A stretch of 28,724 nt of DNA, from positions 1 to 28,724 of IMG/VR virus record IMGVR_UViG_3300030390_000174. One strand, given 5' to 3'. The DNA is from a virus. The position numbers and the translations under genes are program-made. Below, piece by piece: positions 3,343 through 12,602 of the stretch (position 1 is its first letter; each line of letters starts with the position of its first letter). Below the pieces are notes generated by a model that saw only the letters and a list, made by a program, of their open reading frames with translations, made no database searches and was not told the origin of the DNA.

Positions 3343-4425
3343 TTATTTGTTTTTATAGTAAGGAGTCTTAGTCAAATAACTATTGACTATTTCTCTATGC
3401 TCCATTGAACCATCATAATTATCAGATACATCTTCGTATTGGTCATAGTCTTCTTCTTCTACCTTACAAGATATATCGCTACAACAGTCTGAGCAATACC
3501 TGTAGTCGTCTCCAAAAGCACTCTTGCAAAGTTCTCCCTGACAATAGTAACAACTCTCATTACCATCACTATCTAACATAACCTCTTGAGCATCTTGATA
3601 CCAATAGTTTTTATTAGCACCCTTAAAGTCTCCCCAATCGCTAAAACTATATTCGTCTCTATAACTATGCTCGTATCTAACACAGCCTAAATCATTTACA
3701 ATATTAATAATCATATCTAAACAATTATTTGCATCTATAAACTCTACAATTTCTGAATCAGAATGAGGCGCGTAATAACCACAACTCATATTTGCTACAG
3801 CTATACCTATACCGTTTTCTGCTAATTGACCTACGTCTGTAATAGAACCTGAAGTTTCTGCATAACCATACTTAGATATAATTGGAAGTATAGCTTTTGA
3901 AAAAGAATCACTATAAAGTTGACCGCTAATTGAATTGACAAAATCTTTGCTGCCACGCCTGTCGCCTTGTAAACAATAAGCTACATCATTAAACCAAGAC
4001 ATATTTGCATCCCTACTACCTATGCAACCTATTTCTTCTGAATGAAAAAATACACATTTGATAGAGTCTTGACTCTTAAGCATTTCTAAAGCTAACCACA
4101 CACCTACTTTGTCGTCGCCACCTACACCTACCTGTACGCCCTTCTCTGCGTTAAAAGCAAACAAACAGTTGTCGTTGTCAAATACTTTGTAAAATTTATG
4201 TATGTCGTGAACTGTATCTGTATGTGCTACTATACAAGGATATAAATTAGAGTCGCCCTTAGTAATATATACGTTGTTATTTGTTACCTCTATCTTTGCT
4301 GAGGGAGCATTTTTTAAGCTATAACTAATAATGTACTTTATCATTGCCTCTTCTTTTCCGCTAGAAGTCTGTATTGATAACGCATCTATTAATCGTTTTT
4401 TCCTGCTTTTTAAAGTTTTATTCAT
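3343..4425 (-). CDS. Compact M20/M28-type zinc metallopeptidase with C-terminal Cys cluster
   Basis: 360 residues. All five ligand positions of a two-zinc peptidase of the M20/M28/M42 clan appear in order: H68 and D70 in VAHTDTV, D104/D105 in VGGDDKVG, the catalytic E130 with ligand E131 in HSEEIG, D155 in GDRRG and H221 in APHSDSE. Such enzymes remove residues from peptides or hydrolyse related amides in the cytoplasm. Only 66 residues separate D155 and H221, so the roughly 100-residue lid/dimer domain of classic M20 enzymes is missing. After the catalytic domain (to about 247) comes an acidic segment and a Cys cluster (C292, C295, C300, C311, C314, C315, C320) that could bind a further zinc. 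It is first in its transcription unit, about 30 bases downstream of a consensus-like promoter. Unusual cargo for a phage early region; the substrate is unknown. Confidence 0.82.
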   Translation of the reverse strand: MNKTLKSRKKRLIDALSIQTSSGKEEAMIKYIISYSLKNAPSAKIEVTNNNVYITKGDSNLYPCIVAHTDTVHDIHKFYKVFDNDNCLFAFNAEKGVQVGVGGDDKVGVWLALEMLKSQDSIKCVFFHSEEIGCIGSRDANMSWFNDVAYCLQGDRRGSKDFVNSISGQLYSDSFSKAILPIISKYGYAETSGSITDVGQLAENGIGIAVANMSCGYYAPHSDSEIVEFIDANNCLDMIINIVNDLGCVRYEHSYRDEYSFSDWGDFKGANKNYWYQDAQEVMLDSDGNESCYYCQGELCKSAFGDDYRYCSDCCSDISCKVEEEDYDQYEDVSDNYDGSMEHREIVNSYLTKTPYYKNK

Positions 4426-4457
4426 AGTGTTTTTTGTGTTTGATGATTAAATTGAGT

Positions 4458-4490
4458 GTAAATATAATAATAATATATATAACTACCAAA
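4458..4490 (-). promoter_or_regulatory. Bacteroidetes-type promoter for the peptidase/replication operon
   Basis: On the minus strand, TTTG at 4487-4490 is followed after 20 bases by TATATTTAC at 4458-4466, one base short of the Bacteroidetes TAnnTTTG -7 box. Transcription should begin near 4452, leaving about 27 bases before the ATG at 4425. A 17-base block over the -33 element (4481-4497) is shared with the promoter at 6397-6428. It sits immediately after the terminator at 4519-4591. Confidence 0.65.
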
Positions 4491-5120: not shown

Positions 5121-5426
5121 TTACTCACTTTTTACTAATAAAGATTCTATAGCTTTAAAATTTTCTTCTCCCTCTACTATAATAGAGTTAGATTCTAAAT
5201 CTACTTCTACAATATCTATTACGTCTTTTACATCTATATTTAAAAAGTTTGCTAATCTTTGCATTTGATAATACCTCATATAATAAGGCTTGTCTACATA
5301 CTTGTCTATAGTGCTGCCTTTAATATTTAATATTCTTCCAAATTTTTGTTTAGAGATTCCTCTAATTCTTAGTATAGCTTCTAATTCATTTTTAGAAGTT
5401 CTTACTTTATCATAATTATTATTCAT
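5121..5426 (-). CDS. HTH transcriptional regulator (XRE/Cro-like)
   Basis: 101 residues from the ATG at 5424-5426; the frame is open further upstream but that would overlap the preceding gene by 65 bases. Residues about 12-73 form a five-helix XRE-type HTH: NELEAILRIRGISKQKFGRI, then NIKGSTIDKYVDKP as the recognition segment and RYYQMQRLANFLNIDVKDV as helices 4-5. The remaining 25 residues are acidic, with short strands possibly for dimerisation. It is the only clear DNA-binding regulator in the window and is therefore a candidate to bind the repeated block at the two early promoters (inference). It is expressed within the operon started at 6397-6428, so autoregulation is possible. Confidence 0.75.
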   Translation of the reverse strand: MNNNYDKVRTSKNELEAILRIRGISKQKFGRILNIKGSTIDKYVDKPYYMRYYQMQRLANFLNIDVKDVIDIVEVDLESNSIIVEGEENFKAIESLLVKSE

Positions 5427-5436
5427 TTTTTTAATT

Positions 5437-5697
5437 TTATTTAAACATTCCATTTTTTGCAAACTGTTTGTATTGGTCTTTAGGGTCTGAATAAACTTCA
5501 TTTTCTTTTAGATGTTTTATTATTTCATCTGCTTCTAATTCAGTAAATCCTTTTTCAAAAATTTTATAAGATATTTCTTCTTGATTTAAAACACTTAAAG
5601 AGGTTCTTGGTAAAAGTCTGTCTATATAATCTATTTGCCAATACTCTGCATCTTTAGGCTTACCATCAACAATTTCATCTAACCAATCGTCATTCAC
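5437..5697 (-). CDS. Hypothetical protein, GTG start
   Basis: 86 residues beginning at GTG (5695-5697), whose G is shared with the TAG stop of the upstream gene; no ATG fits this frame. Acidic helical protein: DWLDEIVDGKPKDAEYWQID, then YIDRLLPRTSLSVLNQEEI and a helix GFTELEADEIIKHLKENEVY. The arrangement of an aromatic Q-x-x-YID-L segment, followed by eA-eII--L, resembles small helical proteins common in Bacteroidetes phage replication regions; their function is unknown. Located between the annealing-like protein and the HTH regulator. Confidence 0.6.
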   Translation of the reverse strand: MNDDWLDEIVDGKPKDAEYWQIDYIDRLLPRTSLSVLNQEEISYKIFEKGFTELEADEIIKHLKENEVYSDPKDQYKQFAKNGMFK

Positions 5698-6169: not shown

Positions 6170-6370
6170 TTATCCAAAAGGAATAATAAATGGTCTATCT
6201 TCATTGTGTGATTCTTTTCTTTCTGATTTAGCCATATCTCTATAATCATAATCCATAATAGGGTCGTCAAACTCTTGATTACAAGAAACACAAACATAAA
6301 AGTTAAATCTATCTTCATCTCCACACTCATCATAATCTGTTCCACAACACCTGCTTACTTGATATCCCAT
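6170..6370 (-). CDS. Small zinc-binding protein
   Basis: 66 residues with four cysteines arranged as CC (8-9), C16 and C27-x-x-C30 (SRCCGTDYDECG; YVCVSCNQEFDD), the spacing of a zinc ribbon. The remainder is acidic with Tyr/Asp repeats and a Pro-rich end. Chosen over the overlapping frame at 6142-6345 because the Cys pattern is coherent and its ATG at 6368-6370 lies about 20 bases after the predicted transcription start. It is the first gene of the operon that ends at 4599. Confidence 0.7.
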   Translation of the reverse strand: MGYQVSRCCGTDYDECGDEDRFNFYVCVSCNQEFDDPIMDYDYRDMAKSERKESHNEDRPFIIPFG

Positions 6371-6568: not shown

Positions 6569-7654
6569 TTAAAAATAGTGAGTTAGTCTTGCTACTTGAC
6601 CGCTTTTTTTATCGTGGATAAAAGCTTCGCAAGCTTTAGGTGCGCCTGTAAATCCTTTTCTTGAGTGCCAACTATCAGCAGAAGAAGGGCTGCGCATATA
6701 TTCTACAGTAACGCCAATATAATCTTTAGCATCAAGCCATTTATGTTTTACTTTATGATGTATATGATGTAAATAAAAATATCTATATTTAGTTTTAGCC
6801 CACATTTTAGGCTGTTCTTGAGCCATTAGTAGAGGTAAGTTATCCATTTTAGCTCCGTCTCCGTGTTCTAATCCTATAAAATTTTCTCCATAAACATAAT
6901 ATTTTCTATGTGCTACACTAATATCAAATTTTACATCATCAGCTTTTCTAAACCAACTTTTTAAAGTATGTGCTAAATGAAAGCCACTTTGATAATCGTG
7001 GTTACTCATACTATGTATAACATCTACAGGAGCTATTTCGCGCAGCATTTCTACACATTTAACATATAACATTAATGCTATCTCATAATGTTCCCACCAT
7101 TTACCATCTGTATCTTGATGTGTTCCTTTAGTAGTAGTTCCATATACAGAATCTATATGCAGTATATCATTACCAATACAAAATAAAACTCTATCTATGT
7201 TAAATCCTTTAGACTTAGCTATTAATCCATATACACCTTCTAAAACTCTATCTACAGCAGTTTCACAGTCATAATTTTCTCCTGTTTCTGTTTCGCTTGC
7301 ATATTTACCAATATGTATATCAGCAGGGTTTACAACTAAAAGATGAGTTCCTTTAGTTCTTAATATTTTAGTATAAGTTGGAGAGTATTCTTCTATGTAG
7401 TTATTTATTTTTTTAAAGATTTGATTTTCGTCCAAACCAAAATCTTCCTTTGTAACAATAGAGAATCGTAAATCTCCACTCATACTTTGCCAATGCTTTA
7501 CACTAACAATGTCTTTTTTTTCTATACCCCTTTCTTTTAAATGTAAATCTAAAGCTGTATTACCATTTATATTTTCTAAATCGTTACCCCTAAACTCATT
7601 AACAAGCTCAACCTCTTCTGCAGAAAGCCTTAATCTTTTACCTTTTAAGTGCAT
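6569..7654 (-). CDS. Calcineurin-like metallophosphoesterase
   Basis: 361 residues. The metal-binding motifs of the family appear in order: D112-x-H114 (ADIHIG), G161-N-D163, N218-H-D220, H264 (EHGD) and H297-x-H299 (HHIHH). Such enzymes hydrolyse phosphodiesters or monoesters; phage relatives are often annotated as DNA-repair exonuclease (SbcD/Mre11-like) or RNA/nucleotide phosphatases. The N-terminal 100 residues start with a possible HTH (LRLSAEEVELVNEFRGN) and contain no other known motif. No SbcC-like ATPase gene is visible nearby, so a lone enzyme. It follows the late terminator and has its own -7-like box at 7675-7683. Family certain, substrate not. Confidence 0.82.
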   Translation of the reverse strand: MHLKGKRLRLSAEEVELVNEFRGNDLENINGNTALDLHLKERGIEKKDIVSVKHWQSMSGDLRFSIVTKEDFGLDENQIFKKINNYIEEYSPTYTKILRTKGTHLLVVNPADIHIGKYASETETGENYDCETAVDRVLEGVYGLIAKSKGFNIDRVLFCIGNDILHIDSVYGTTTKGTHQDTDGKWWEHYEIALMLYVKCVEMLREIAPVDVIHSMSNHDYQSGFHLAHTLKSWFRKADDVKFDISVAHRKYYVYGENFIGLEHGDGAKMDNLPLLMAQEQPKMWAKTKYRYFYLHHIHHKVKHKWLDAKDYIGVTVEYMRSPSSADSWHSRKGFTGAPKACEAFIHDKKSGQVARLTHYF

Positions 7655-7687: not shown

Positions 7688-7739
7688 AAAAAAAAGCCAA
7701 TAAAAAGAAAGAGCGAGAAGTTATTAACCTCTCACTCTT
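7688..7739 (-). terminator. Strong intrinsic terminator
   Basis: The minus-strand RNA from 7739 to 7709 forms a 14-bp hairpin with a 3-base loop, AAGAGUGAGAGGUU pairing with AACUUCUCGCUCUU, including two G-U pairs. It is followed by UCUUUUU and, after AUUGGC, eight more U. The G-U pairs become A-C mismatches on the plus strand, so the structure is directional. It ends transcripts of the late/lysis genes and of the short unit starting at 7781-7812. Confidence 0.85.
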
Positions 7740-7776
7740 AATTACTATAACTAAAACACATATTGAAAACACTCAA
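7690..7776 (-). ncRNA. Putative small RNA or attenuating leader
   Basis: A consensus promoter (7781-7812) is followed within about 70 bases by the terminator hairpin, so a transcript of roughly 70-85 nt is expected with no ordinary gene in it. Near its 5' end AUUGA/UCAAU can pair around a 6-base loop (7762-7777 region). It contains an ATG (7759-7761) opening a 7-codon ORF, MCFSYSN, whose stop (7738-7740) touches the first base pair of the terminator. It may be a free regulatory RNA or a leader controlling read-through into the phosphoesterase gene. Confidence 0.5.
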
Positions 7777-7780
7777 TAAA

Positions 7781-7812
7781 GCAAAGTTAATCTTATTTAT
7801 TTAATGTGCAAA
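7781..7812 (-). promoter_or_regulatory. Perfect Bacteroidetes promoter without an ordinary gene
   Basis: On the minus strand, TTTG (7809-7812), exactly 19 bases, then TAACTTTGC (7781-7789), a full match to TTTG-N19-TAnnTTTG. It begins right after the stop of the holin-like gene. Expected start near 7776. Only the short unit to the terminator at 7688-7739 lies immediately downstream. Confidence 0.75.
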
Positions 7813-8010
7813 TTATTTTTTAACTTTAGTATCAGCAATTCCTTGACCTAATACAAGAGCGGCAATACTCATTAAAATATTATTTACTTCTTCAGGGTTT
7901 AGCCCAAAATTATCGCTTAAAAATGTAGTTATAATACCAACTATTGTGTACCAAAACTTTTTACTTTTAAGCATTTTTCCTAATAAAAACTTCTCTAAAA
8001 ATTTGTTCAT
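7813..8010 (-). CDS. Holin-like small membrane protein
   Basis: 65 residues with a basic N-terminus (MNKFLEKFLLGKMLKSKK), a membrane segment (about 20-36, FWYTIVGIITTFLSDNFG), a short polar turn (NPEEVNN) and a second hydrophobic segment (about 45-60, ILMSIAALVLGQGIAD), ending TKVKK. Size and topology fit a two-span phage holin that opens the inner membrane for lysis, though the family is not one I can name. It directly follows the DUF5675 gene (1-base gap), which would form a lysis pair, and is the last gene before the terminator. Confidence 0.6.
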   Translation of the reverse strand: MNKFLEKFLLGKMLKSKKFWYTIVGIITTFLSDNFGLNPEEVNNILMSIAALVLGQGIADTKVKK

Positions 8011-8011
8011 T

Positions 8012-8425
8012 TTATCTATTTTTAATTACTAATTCAATTTTTCTTTCTAATTTCTCTTTAAATATTTTATCCATTAAAAGAGTATGAGCTGTTTTACTTT
8101 GATAAATTACATTATCTCCTCTCATCATTCCTGTTAAAATACAACCCCTACTATCTTTAGCTGAGTTACCTCTATGAAACAATATGTAGCTTCTATTAGG
8201 CACTTCTTCTAAAATTAAATGGTCATAATTTCTGCTCGCACTATCTTTTGCTAATCTAACTTTGCAATCATAAACACCTCTTGGCACGCAAGATATACTT
8301 TTTTCGTTATTATTCCACGCAAGTTCTAAAGTATATGAAATAAATTCTCCATTAAGGTAAAGTTTACCAATGACAGATTCATCAGTATAAGTTTCTCTTA
8401 CTATTAGAAGATTACAACTGTTCAT
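8012..8425 (-). CDS. DUF5675-family protein, candidate cell-wall enzyme
   Basis: 137 residues spanning one domain. Recognisable DUF5675 features are the N-terminal LIVRETYTDESVIGKLYLNG, the PRGVYDC turn (48-54) and the most conserved block, H84-R-G-N87 ... D91-S-R-G-C95-I (ILFHRGNSAKDSRGCI). That last block resembles the His and SxGC catalytic motif of YkuD L,D-transpeptidases, suggesting a Cys-based peptidoglycan enzyme; this is inference, as DUF5675 has no settled activity. Adjacent to the holin-like gene, and no other lysin is visible in the window, so it is the best endolysin candidate. Confidence 0.65.
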   Translation of the reverse strand: MNSCNLLIVRETYTDESVIGKLYLNGEFISYTLELAWNNNEKSISCVPRGVYDCKVRLAKDSASRNYDHLILEEVPNRSYILFHRGNSAKDSRGCILTGMMRGDNVIYQSKTAHTLLMDKIFKEKLERKIELVIKNR

Positions 8426-10422: not shown

Positions 10423-11748
10423 TTATTGTTCTACTGTTATTTCTTTAGACTCGTCAGTTTCTCCATCTCCATCTGTATCTTTTTCTACAACTATAACTTC
10501 TCTATCTGCAACAAACATATCTCCATCTTCAAGCATAGGTAGCTCTTCATCAATTAATCTTCTTTGTTCATTTATTGTTAAAACCTCTCTAATATCTACA
10601 TCATTAGCATAAGATATTGGCGGCTCGTAATGAATACTTAAATCTTTAGGGTCAAAGCCCATTTCTTTATATAATATTGTTCTAATACCATTTAACAAAA
10701 GCTCTGATGTGTCTCTTATTACAGTAGTCATTACAAGGTCATAAGCTATTCTAATTTCACTACCTGTGTTATTCATTTTACCTGAACTAACAATTCCCGA
10801 AAGAGATGGCTGCCATCTGTTAGCTGTAATAATATTTTGGTCTGTAATTTGTTGTAGTTCTAGCCAACTACCTTCTTGGTCGTCTTTTATAATTTGAACA
10901 TTAGCAGGAGCTGTATCTCCATTTTTTACTATAAATAATATCTTACCATTATTTCCTTCTCCTACAAATTTCTTTTGTGCTTCTGTTACCATTTTCTGAG
11001 CTTCTTCCTCTCCCATATCTCCATTTATCTCTACAATAGCAGAAGGCTGAAAGCCATTTAAAAACTTTGTATGATTCCATTTACCAATCTCATAATCTAC
11101 TGCAATATGTTCTAAAGCAGCCACATAATCAGGAAGACCATAATAATTAAAAGTAGGCTCGTAATCTTTAAAGTGTATTACAAATTTATTGTGAGCAATT
11201 CTTGGATAAATAGGAAGCCTATACATTTTATCTTCTTGATTCCAATACTTACACCAATCAGAATTTACATATACTTCTTTTTTAGATTTAGACATTCTAA
11301 CAGTTGTAGCGTCTAAATGATAAATATTTACACCTCCTTCATACTTAACACATTCCATATAAGCATTACCAAAAGTATAATAATCGTCTGCTAATTTTTT
11401 AAACACATCTCTTAAAGATTCGTGGTCAGCATTAACATCTTCAATAAATTTTTCTAAATTTTCATTTCTACAAACAAATTTAGCGCCACTTGTAAAAACA
11501 GTTTTTTGTGCTAGTACACTTCTTTGAGTAGATGATTTTCTTTTTAATTCCGCTAAATATTGCGGAAATAAATTGTCTGTACCAAATGGAATCCACTTAG
11601 TATTAATATTTTTTATATCTTTTACTTCTCTTATGTTTGGAGGTATAGCTAAATCAAAAACCCCAAACTCAAAAGTATTACTTTTTTTAGCTGTCTTTCT
11701 TAGCTGACTCGCCTTTTTTGTTTGACTTTTTAGTGTTGCTTTCTTCAT
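10423..11748 (-). CDS. Phage portal protein
   Basis: 441 residues. The portal ring at a capsid vertex is the DNA entry channel and binds terminase and adaptor. Recognisable blocks: INTKWIPFGTDNLFPQYLAE (about 48-67), FKKLADDYYTFGNAYMECVK, the HLDATTVRMS segment and the C-terminal region RDTSELLLNGIRTILYKEMG. The N-terminal 22 residues are highly basic and overlap the upstream gene by 62 bases; the C-terminal 35 are acidic (DTDGDGETDESKEIT). Length is normal. Being encoded after the capsid rather than between terminase and protease is unusual. Confidence 0.85.
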   Translation of the reverse strand: MKKATLKSQTKKASQLRKTAKKSNTFEFGVFDLAIPPNIREVKDIKNINTKWIPFGTDNLFPQYLAELKRKSSTQRSVLAQKTVFTSGAKFVCRNENLEKFIEDVNADHESLRDVFKKLADDYYTFGNAYMECVKYEGGVNIYHLDATTVRMSKSKKEVYVNSDWCKYWNQEDKMYRLPIYPRIAHNKFVIHFKDYEPTFNYYGLPDYVAALEHIAVDYEIGKWNHTKFLNGFQPSAIVEINGDMGEEEAQKMVTEAQKKFVGEGNNGKILFIVKNGDTAPANVQIIKDDQEGSWLELQQITDQNIITANRWQPSLSGIVSSGKMNNTGSEIRIAYDLVMTTVIRDTSELLLNGIRTILYKEMGFDPKDLSIHYEPPISYANDVDIREVLTINEQRRLIDEELPMLEDGDMFVADREVIVVEKDTDGDGETDESKEITVEQ

Positions 11749-11902
11749 TAGACTTTGTTTTAATAATTATTGATGTAAGTTTTCTATCTTCGTAAAGATG
11801 AGCCAAAACTTCTTGTGAAGCATCACTCCAAGAAACTGTACCAAAATTAGATACTGAACTTCTCAAACCTTCATAATCTTTGTGAACTTTGTATTTTGAC
11901 AT
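11687..11902 (-). CDS. Small protein overlapping the portal gene
   Basis: 71 residues from ATG 11900-11902 (MSKYKVHKDYEGLRSSVSNF); the frame is open to another ATG at 11965, but that start lies right against the terminator at 11969-12008, so I prefer the shorter form. A globular first half (YEGLRSSVSNFGTVSWSDAS, EVLAHLYEDRKLTSIIIKTK) is followed by a Lys/Ser/Asn tail. The last 62 bases are read in a second frame as the basic portal N-terminus. A weak promoter-like TATCTTTA occurs upstream near 11927. Function unknown; similar small proteins occur next to portals in Bacteroidetes phages. Confidence 0.55.
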   Translation of the reverse strand: MSKYKVHKDYEGLRSSVSNFGTVSWSDASQEVLAHLYEDRKLTSIIIKTKSNEESNTKKSNKKGESAKKDS

Positions 11903-11968
11903 ATCTATATATATTTTTAAGTACGAAGGTAAAGATAATATATTTATTTTATCACAATCGCACATATT

Positions 11969-12020: not shown

Positions 12021-12602
12021 CTAAGATGTAGTTGCTGTTAAGTCTCCTGCAATAACTGTAATTGCCCCTGAATATTCAAGAGGTAATTCAAATTGTCTAG
12101 CAGTTAAAGTAACTGTAACTCCATTATCGTCTGCATAAGCAGCGCCACTTCCCCCTTCAATGCTTGTTAAGTTAGCATAAGTTTGATTTCTATCCCAAGG
12201 AGTTGAACCTTGAGATTGATTAGCATACTTATAACTCCAACCTACAACCATCATTTTACCTGAATTAAATTCAACTAAAGCTACTGGGCAAGCACTTTCT
12301 AAATTTGAAAGTTCGTGAAATCTAGCACCATCACAATCAGGAATGTAAAAAGAAACAGCACACTCATAAGATGTGCTTCCTCCTTCTTTTGCTCCTGTTA
12401 TTGTAAGAGATGCAGTTTCATTCTTAAACTCAAATCTAGCCCAAGGGTTTGTTACTGTTAAACCCGTTAAACTGTGAGTAACATTTAAAGATGATGGTGC
12501 AGCAGTTGCAATATTATCTAAATCCGTTAAAAGAATTTGTCTAATACCACCTACAGCATTTAAATCTCCGCAAGCTACTAATAATCCTGAATCTATTGCC
12601 AT
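12021..12602 (-). CDS. Probable major tail tube protein
   Basis: 193 residues, a beta-rich protein of the size of phage tail tube subunits. It begins MAIDSGLLVACGDLNAVGGI, continues with repeated short strands (SLTGLTVTNPWARFEFKNET; TSYECAVSFYIPD; KMMVVGWSYKYAN) and ends with LPLEYSGAITVIAGDL. It is encoded directly after the major capsid protein and before a terminator, so both abundant virion proteins share a transcript. No other tail tube candidate is visible. Alternative: a capsid decoration protein. Function inferred from size, fold impression and context. Confidence 0.55.
   Translation of the reverse strand: MAIDSGLLVACGDLNAVGGIRQILLTDLDNIATAAPSSLNVTHSLTGLTVTNPWARFEFKNETASLTITGAKEGGSTSYECAVSFYIPDCDGARFHELSNLESACPVALVEFNSGKMMVVGWSYKYANQSQGSTPWDRNQTYANLTSIEGGSGAAYADDNGVTVTLTARQFELPLEYSGAITVIAGDLTATTS

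Follow-up and report, generated by a model that had tools for sequence, protein, structure and literature searches.

What is encoded by the 125 bases at positions 7,688 to 7,812 of this viral DNA, which lie between the late genes and an exonuclease/phosphoesterase gene? The window, as used here, is the whole stretch of DNA that was analyzed (28,724 nucleotides of an IMG/VR viral record), the main genes of which are on the − strand. Within it, 158 non-coding bases separate a 65-aa ORF from the exonuclease gene and contain a promoter, a short transcript, and a terminator, in that order (Table 1). A preliminary description had proposed a full-consensus promoter and a 14-bp terminator with no ordinary gene between them, and all of this held: the promoter matches the consensus exactly, the 14-pair stem is followed by a T-rich tail, and no ordinary gene was found between the 65-aa ORF and the exonuclease. 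Exact TTTG-N19-TAnnTTTG promoters occur four times in the window, versus 0.3 expected (four were reached in 0 of 60 shuffles), and the 79-nt transcript folds at −20.6 kcal/mol, compared with −10.3 in shuffles (z = −4.3, 0/200). The promoter and terminator are real, beyond chance, and the terminator is likely also the end of the late operon. Mapped promoters of Flavobacterium psychrophilum have their −7 box, TAnnTTTG, at −12 to −5 (PMC9723704), and the 5′ end of the small RNA is therefore predicted at about 7777, adjoining the 7776 of the preliminary description. A second strong terminator-like hairpin (12008-11979, − strand; 12 pairs, then T-rich) was observed inside the late block, between the genes at 12021-12602 and 11687-11965.

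Table 1. Positions of the predicted small RNA, its signals, and the neighboring and candidate target genes in the window
Feature	Positions	Strand	Remarks
M42-peptidase-like gene, predicted target	3343..4425	−	PF05343, phrog_4191
Leader of peptidase-like gene	4426..4458	−	predicted pairing site AAACACAAAAAACACU at 4441-4426, directly before AUG
Near-consensus promoter of peptidase-like gene, TTTG-N20-TATATTTA	4459..4490	−	read from sequence
First gene after exonuclease, predicted target in most other clades	6170..6370	−	own promoter 6428-6398
Exonuclease/phosphoesterase gene	6569..7654	−	phrog_704
Predicted small RNA, ~75 nt	7702..7777	−	covariance model match
Terminator hairpin, 14 pairs, 3-nt loop	7709..7739	−	T-rich tail 7708-7702
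Linker with conserved UAGUUA core	7740..7761	−	alignment; duplexes
5′ hairpin AUUG-AGUGUUUU-CAAU	7762..7777	−	loop 7773-7766; stem covaries in family
Promoter TTTG-N19-TAACTTTG	7782..7812	−	exact consensus; −33 box 7812-7809, −7 box 7789-7782
65-aa ORF, without family match	7813-8010	−	end of late block
DUF5675 protein	8012-8425	−	precedes 65-aa ORF in late block

Searches with the exonuclease and the 65-aa protein provided a set of 150 loci, and a covariance model was built from 29 sequences. The element was present in approximately 90 viral contigs by this model (a few loci share one contig), all from related uncultivated marine phages; the window itself matched at 7696-7800 with 89.9 bits and an E value of 1.7e-14, being among the model's own sequences. 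Close relatives, in which the exonuclease was about 85% or more identical, had the same promoter in the same place, and the promoter box, both hairpins, and the linker were retained in relatives, the conservation on which the preliminary description had staked its reading. The covariation it had proposed to look for was likewise found, with compensatory changes in both helices across related contigs that, for the 5′ hairpin and terminator taken together, exceeded 500 of 500 shuffles and every slid control. Two alignments, one fitted to the model and one not fitted to structure, agreed on this. In the terminator stem, 8 of the 14 pairs had changed on both sides, with 99% of cells paired. It is thus very probable that the 125-base stretch is a gene for a small RNA, equipped with a promoter and a terminator of its own, and the element appears to be a discrete non-coding transcription unit.

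The element was absent from relatives with a gap of only 6-22 nt before the exonuclease. No Rfam family matched in the window or in five relatives, and the Rfam matches that emerged at a lax threshold were rejected as chance only. In the stretches examined of Flavobacterium phages of Muminvirus and Lillamyvirus, which keep the exonuclease, no convincing model match was found, and among bacterial genomes a single MAG contig carried the exonuclease, with the small RNA absent. Matches from a broad scan with a DNA pattern were mostly due to chance and were sorted by the covariance model. A more distant phage (L140, 7390-7540) has, at a different place, a promoter box, then TAGTTAGTTATTTAGTT, then a strong terminator; weak model matches in L145, L146, L149, and L150 are similar, and this type of element may be the same RNA in minimal form. 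The best leaders for it in G019 were unconvincing. Divergent RNA forms with a longer, GC-richer first hairpin were seen directly after the 65-aa ORF homologue in L088 (6160-6330) and L070 (5741-5857), and by eye the L088 linker, ACATTAGTTTAGTTAAG, is approximately the complement of its peptidase leader, AACTAACTAATGTTTAAC.

Weak opposite-strand matches to the model in L113, L064, and L132 proved to be leaders of a downstream gene read backwards. Being reverse complements of such target leaders rather than paralogues of the RNA, they showed that the RNA and the leaders are complementary, and this led to a search for targets. When the RNA loop plus linker was scored against start regions, two targets recurred in many phages. 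One, at about +1.4 kb, is the gene that immediately follows the exonuclease, and the other, at +3.4 to +4.7 kb, is M42-peptidase-like. Across the 15 other genomes that matched the model clearly (30-62 start regions each), the peptidase leader ranked first in eight (G001-G005, G007, G008, and G015) and second in three (G006, G009, and G014), which makes 11 in all; shuffled RNAs did as well in 0-3 of 100 cases. These counts are not independent, because the phages are related. For the remaining four, the G013 record ends before the gene would be reached, G010 has a divergent RNA, G017 belongs to the window's clade, and in G016, which shows no peptidase leader, the top five start regions were all leaders with the motif. 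Among divergent RNA forms (G010, G011, and G012), the peptidase leader fell outside the top four.

In most clades, the complementarity of the loop and linker extends over almost the entire 5′ leader of early phage genes and keeps a single register. The duplex register common to the family places the loop, AGUGUUUU(C), on (G)AAAACAC or GAAAACGC, which lies at the AUG or no more than a few bases away, and the hairpin arm and linker on the CUAACUAACUA part of the leader. Duplex energies reached −37.9 (L064), −31.1 (L040), and −30.8 and −30.1 kcal/mol (L037), with 0 of 500 shuffles as good, and pairing recurred in loci fetched by the peptidase alone (L314, −25.5; L317, −26.0; L341, −30.6). RNAs paired better with their own leaders than with swapped ones (0/20,000 permutations for the first gene and 280/20,000 for the peptidase). 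Start regions carrying the motif pair TAACTA and AAAAC(A/G)C numbered 15 of 252 in phages that have the RNA and 0 of 277 in relatives that lack it; composition accounts for part of this signal, as the reversed control motif TTAGTTA was also somewhat enriched (9/252 versus 1/277). Conservation, covariation, and complementarity across the family can be read directly from these sequences.

The peptidase-like gene has a further peculiarity. Within its motif GGDDKVG(I/V)*IAL, nine loci (L036, L070, L088, L325, L326, L328, L329, L331, and L334) carry an in-frame TGA where others have TGG (Trp). General recoding is excluded because elsewhere the aligned genes of G011, G012, and G014 use TGG 48-72 times and contain no other in-frame TGA. 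The codon may reflect readthrough, a split gene, or something else.

We consider it probable that the element specifies a phage-encoded, trans-acting antisense small RNA whose loop and linker pair with early leaders and thereby block translation. From the patterns above we infer that the RNA is transcribed and pairs in the cell, that it represses its targets, and when it acts, as follows. The host main sigma factor would start the small RNA at about 7777, and the transcript would end at the terminator common to the late operon. The 5′ hairpin would present the AGUGUUUU loop and the linker would be single-stranded, so that both could pair with early phage mRNA leaders in a duplex spanning the leader from near its 5′ start to the AUG. 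Foremost among the targets would be the M42-peptidase-like gene, joined in most clades by the first gene after the exonuclease. In a Bacteroidota host, such a duplex would block translation of early genes. Repression is to be expected of a leader duplex because initiation in Bacteroidota is described (PMC6847099) as proceeding without Shine-Dalgarno sequences and as tuned by mRNA structure. Because the terminator is common with the late operon, late transcription could add small RNA and so turn off early genes.

The preliminary description had also called for a search for antisense targets in host and phage. Within the phage this search succeeded for the family, in which complementarity to separately encoded mRNA appears conserved, but pairing was not significant in the window phage alone. 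There, AGUGUUUU would pair with AAAACACU immediately before the peptidase AUG at −14.6 kcal/mol, with 64 of 500 shuffled RNAs as good, and the leader AAACACAAAAAACACU-AUG fits the RNA's AGUGUUUU plus UGUGUUU in the family register; the leader of the first gene has lost the motif, with a duplex of just −7.8. Among clade-mates, shuffled RNAs were as good in 3 of 500 cases for L084, 44 of 500 for L002, and 51 of 500 for L007, and changes that look compensatory by eye were seen in L002 (leader ACUAAAUAC, RNA GUAUUUUAGU) and L084 (leader ACCAAACACA, RNA UGUGUUUUGGU). The pairing thus finds weak support in the window phage itself. The poor pairing of the window clade with its own leaders is what would be expected if the small RNA were aimed at host mRNAs or a protein and the match to phage leaders were secondary, a reading that we regard as unlikely though not negligible, given that the match to phage leaders is position-specific, extends along leaders that are long, and is found together with the RNA in many phages.

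Another reading makes the element an attenuator, with the promoter serving the exonuclease operon and the terminator conditionally read through. The preliminary description had offered a small regulatory RNA or an attenuator as alternatives, and only the former is borne out, by the conserved promoter, the covarying hairpins, and the conserved complementarity to phage mRNA leaders. The position of the element suits attenuation, as it lies directly upstream on the same strand, with a strong terminator about 50 nt before the exonuclease gene. However, a TAnnTTTG promoter consensus follows the terminator in many relatives, where it precedes the matched exonuclease frame by 34-50 nt. This makes it unlikely that the exonuclease is controlled by attenuation, and its gene probably forms a transcription unit of its own. 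The window itself has just a weaker promoter consensus (TATATTTA) between the terminator and the exonuclease. No alternative antiterminator fold was seen. The 7-codon ORF that the preliminary description placed on the transcript (MCFSYSN) is present in the window but not conserved, and we consider it incidental, because relatives L002 and L003 lack an ATG there and L005 and L007 would encode other peptides. Attenuation would also leave the conserved loop and linker unexplained, and as a full account of the element it is quite improbable.

The exonuclease leader was likewise rejected as the main target, since notable complementarity was confined to the sister clade (0-4 of 200 shuffles as good in L008, L011, L016, L022, and L111), compared with 27 of 200 in the window and more in most clade-mates. 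Predicted pairing falls mainly on two other genes, the peptidase-like one and the one that first follows the exonuclease. In five loci (L028, L030, L040, L044, and L055), the TAnnTTTG box ends only a few bases before the exonuclease ATG, so that the exonuclease mRNA would have almost no leader or none at all.

Alternatively, the shared motifs, which are oppositely oriented in the small-RNA gene and the target leaders, could serve a phage regulator as DNA operators. They lie just 3′ of promoters in both places, and a Cro/C1-type protein is encoded at 5121-5501. Yet one block lies within a covarying hairpin loop, and the spacing of the two blocks is unequal between the RNA and the leaders, which suits pairing better than binding by one protein, and we hold the operator reading to be very improbable. 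That the stretch is merely a late-operon terminator with an incidental promoter match is extremely improbable. The late genes do reach their end at this point, and the stem is a strong one, but conservation is as good in the promoter box, 5′ hairpin, and linker as in the stem.

How would an antisense RNA of this kind relate to known systems? In the c4 RNA, pairing near the ribosome-binding site involves two separate blocks. The c4 antisense RNA of phage P1, which is about 77 nt and trans-acting, represses synthesis of the phage Ant protein (PMC8546580), and the predicted RNA resembles it in being phage-encoded, of similar length, and trans-acting on a phage mRNA. However, c4 is processed from a longer transcript, whereas the window RNA has its own predicted promoter and terminator, another host phylum, and no Rfam match, and its predicted targets are the peptidase-like gene and small genes without a known family rather than an antirepressor operon. 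Since it lacks an Rfam match and its predicted targets differ, it falls outside the c4 family. Lambda OOP RNA, whose antisense pairing with cII leads to RNase III decay (PMC12197685), is also a short phage antisense RNA with a phage (in this case regulatory) mRNA as its target, but the window RNA and its targets are kilobases apart and on one strand. VpdS and PreS, which are small RNAs of phages infecting proteobacteria and work with Hfq (PMC12197685), share with the predicted RNA a stand-alone gene and base-pairing in trans; the RNA described here differs in its predicted targets, phage leaders, and in its host phylum, Bacteroidota. Small-RNA regulation is known in that phylum from Bacteroides thetaiotaomicron, where the RNAs are chromosomal and have metabolic targets (PMC7366714), unlike the phage-encoded RNA of the window. 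No base-pairing RNA encoded by Bacteroidota phages was found in the literature searched, and the element is best filed as a new, putative family of phage antisense small RNAs.

This family combines a conserved anatomy, named targets in the phage, and signs that RNA and leader co-vary, and the model can therefore be tested by reporters in a flavobacterium. We tentatively suggest, as a possibility short of likely, that a group of marine Bacteroidota phages may give several early genes similar TAAC-type leaders and encode one anti-leader RNA, complementary to nearly the whole leader, which would be made at the end of the late operon and turn down the early regulon at once in hosts without Shine-Dalgarno pairing. 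The family would also offer a natural probe of how initiation is blocked at leaders without Shine-Dalgarno sequences.
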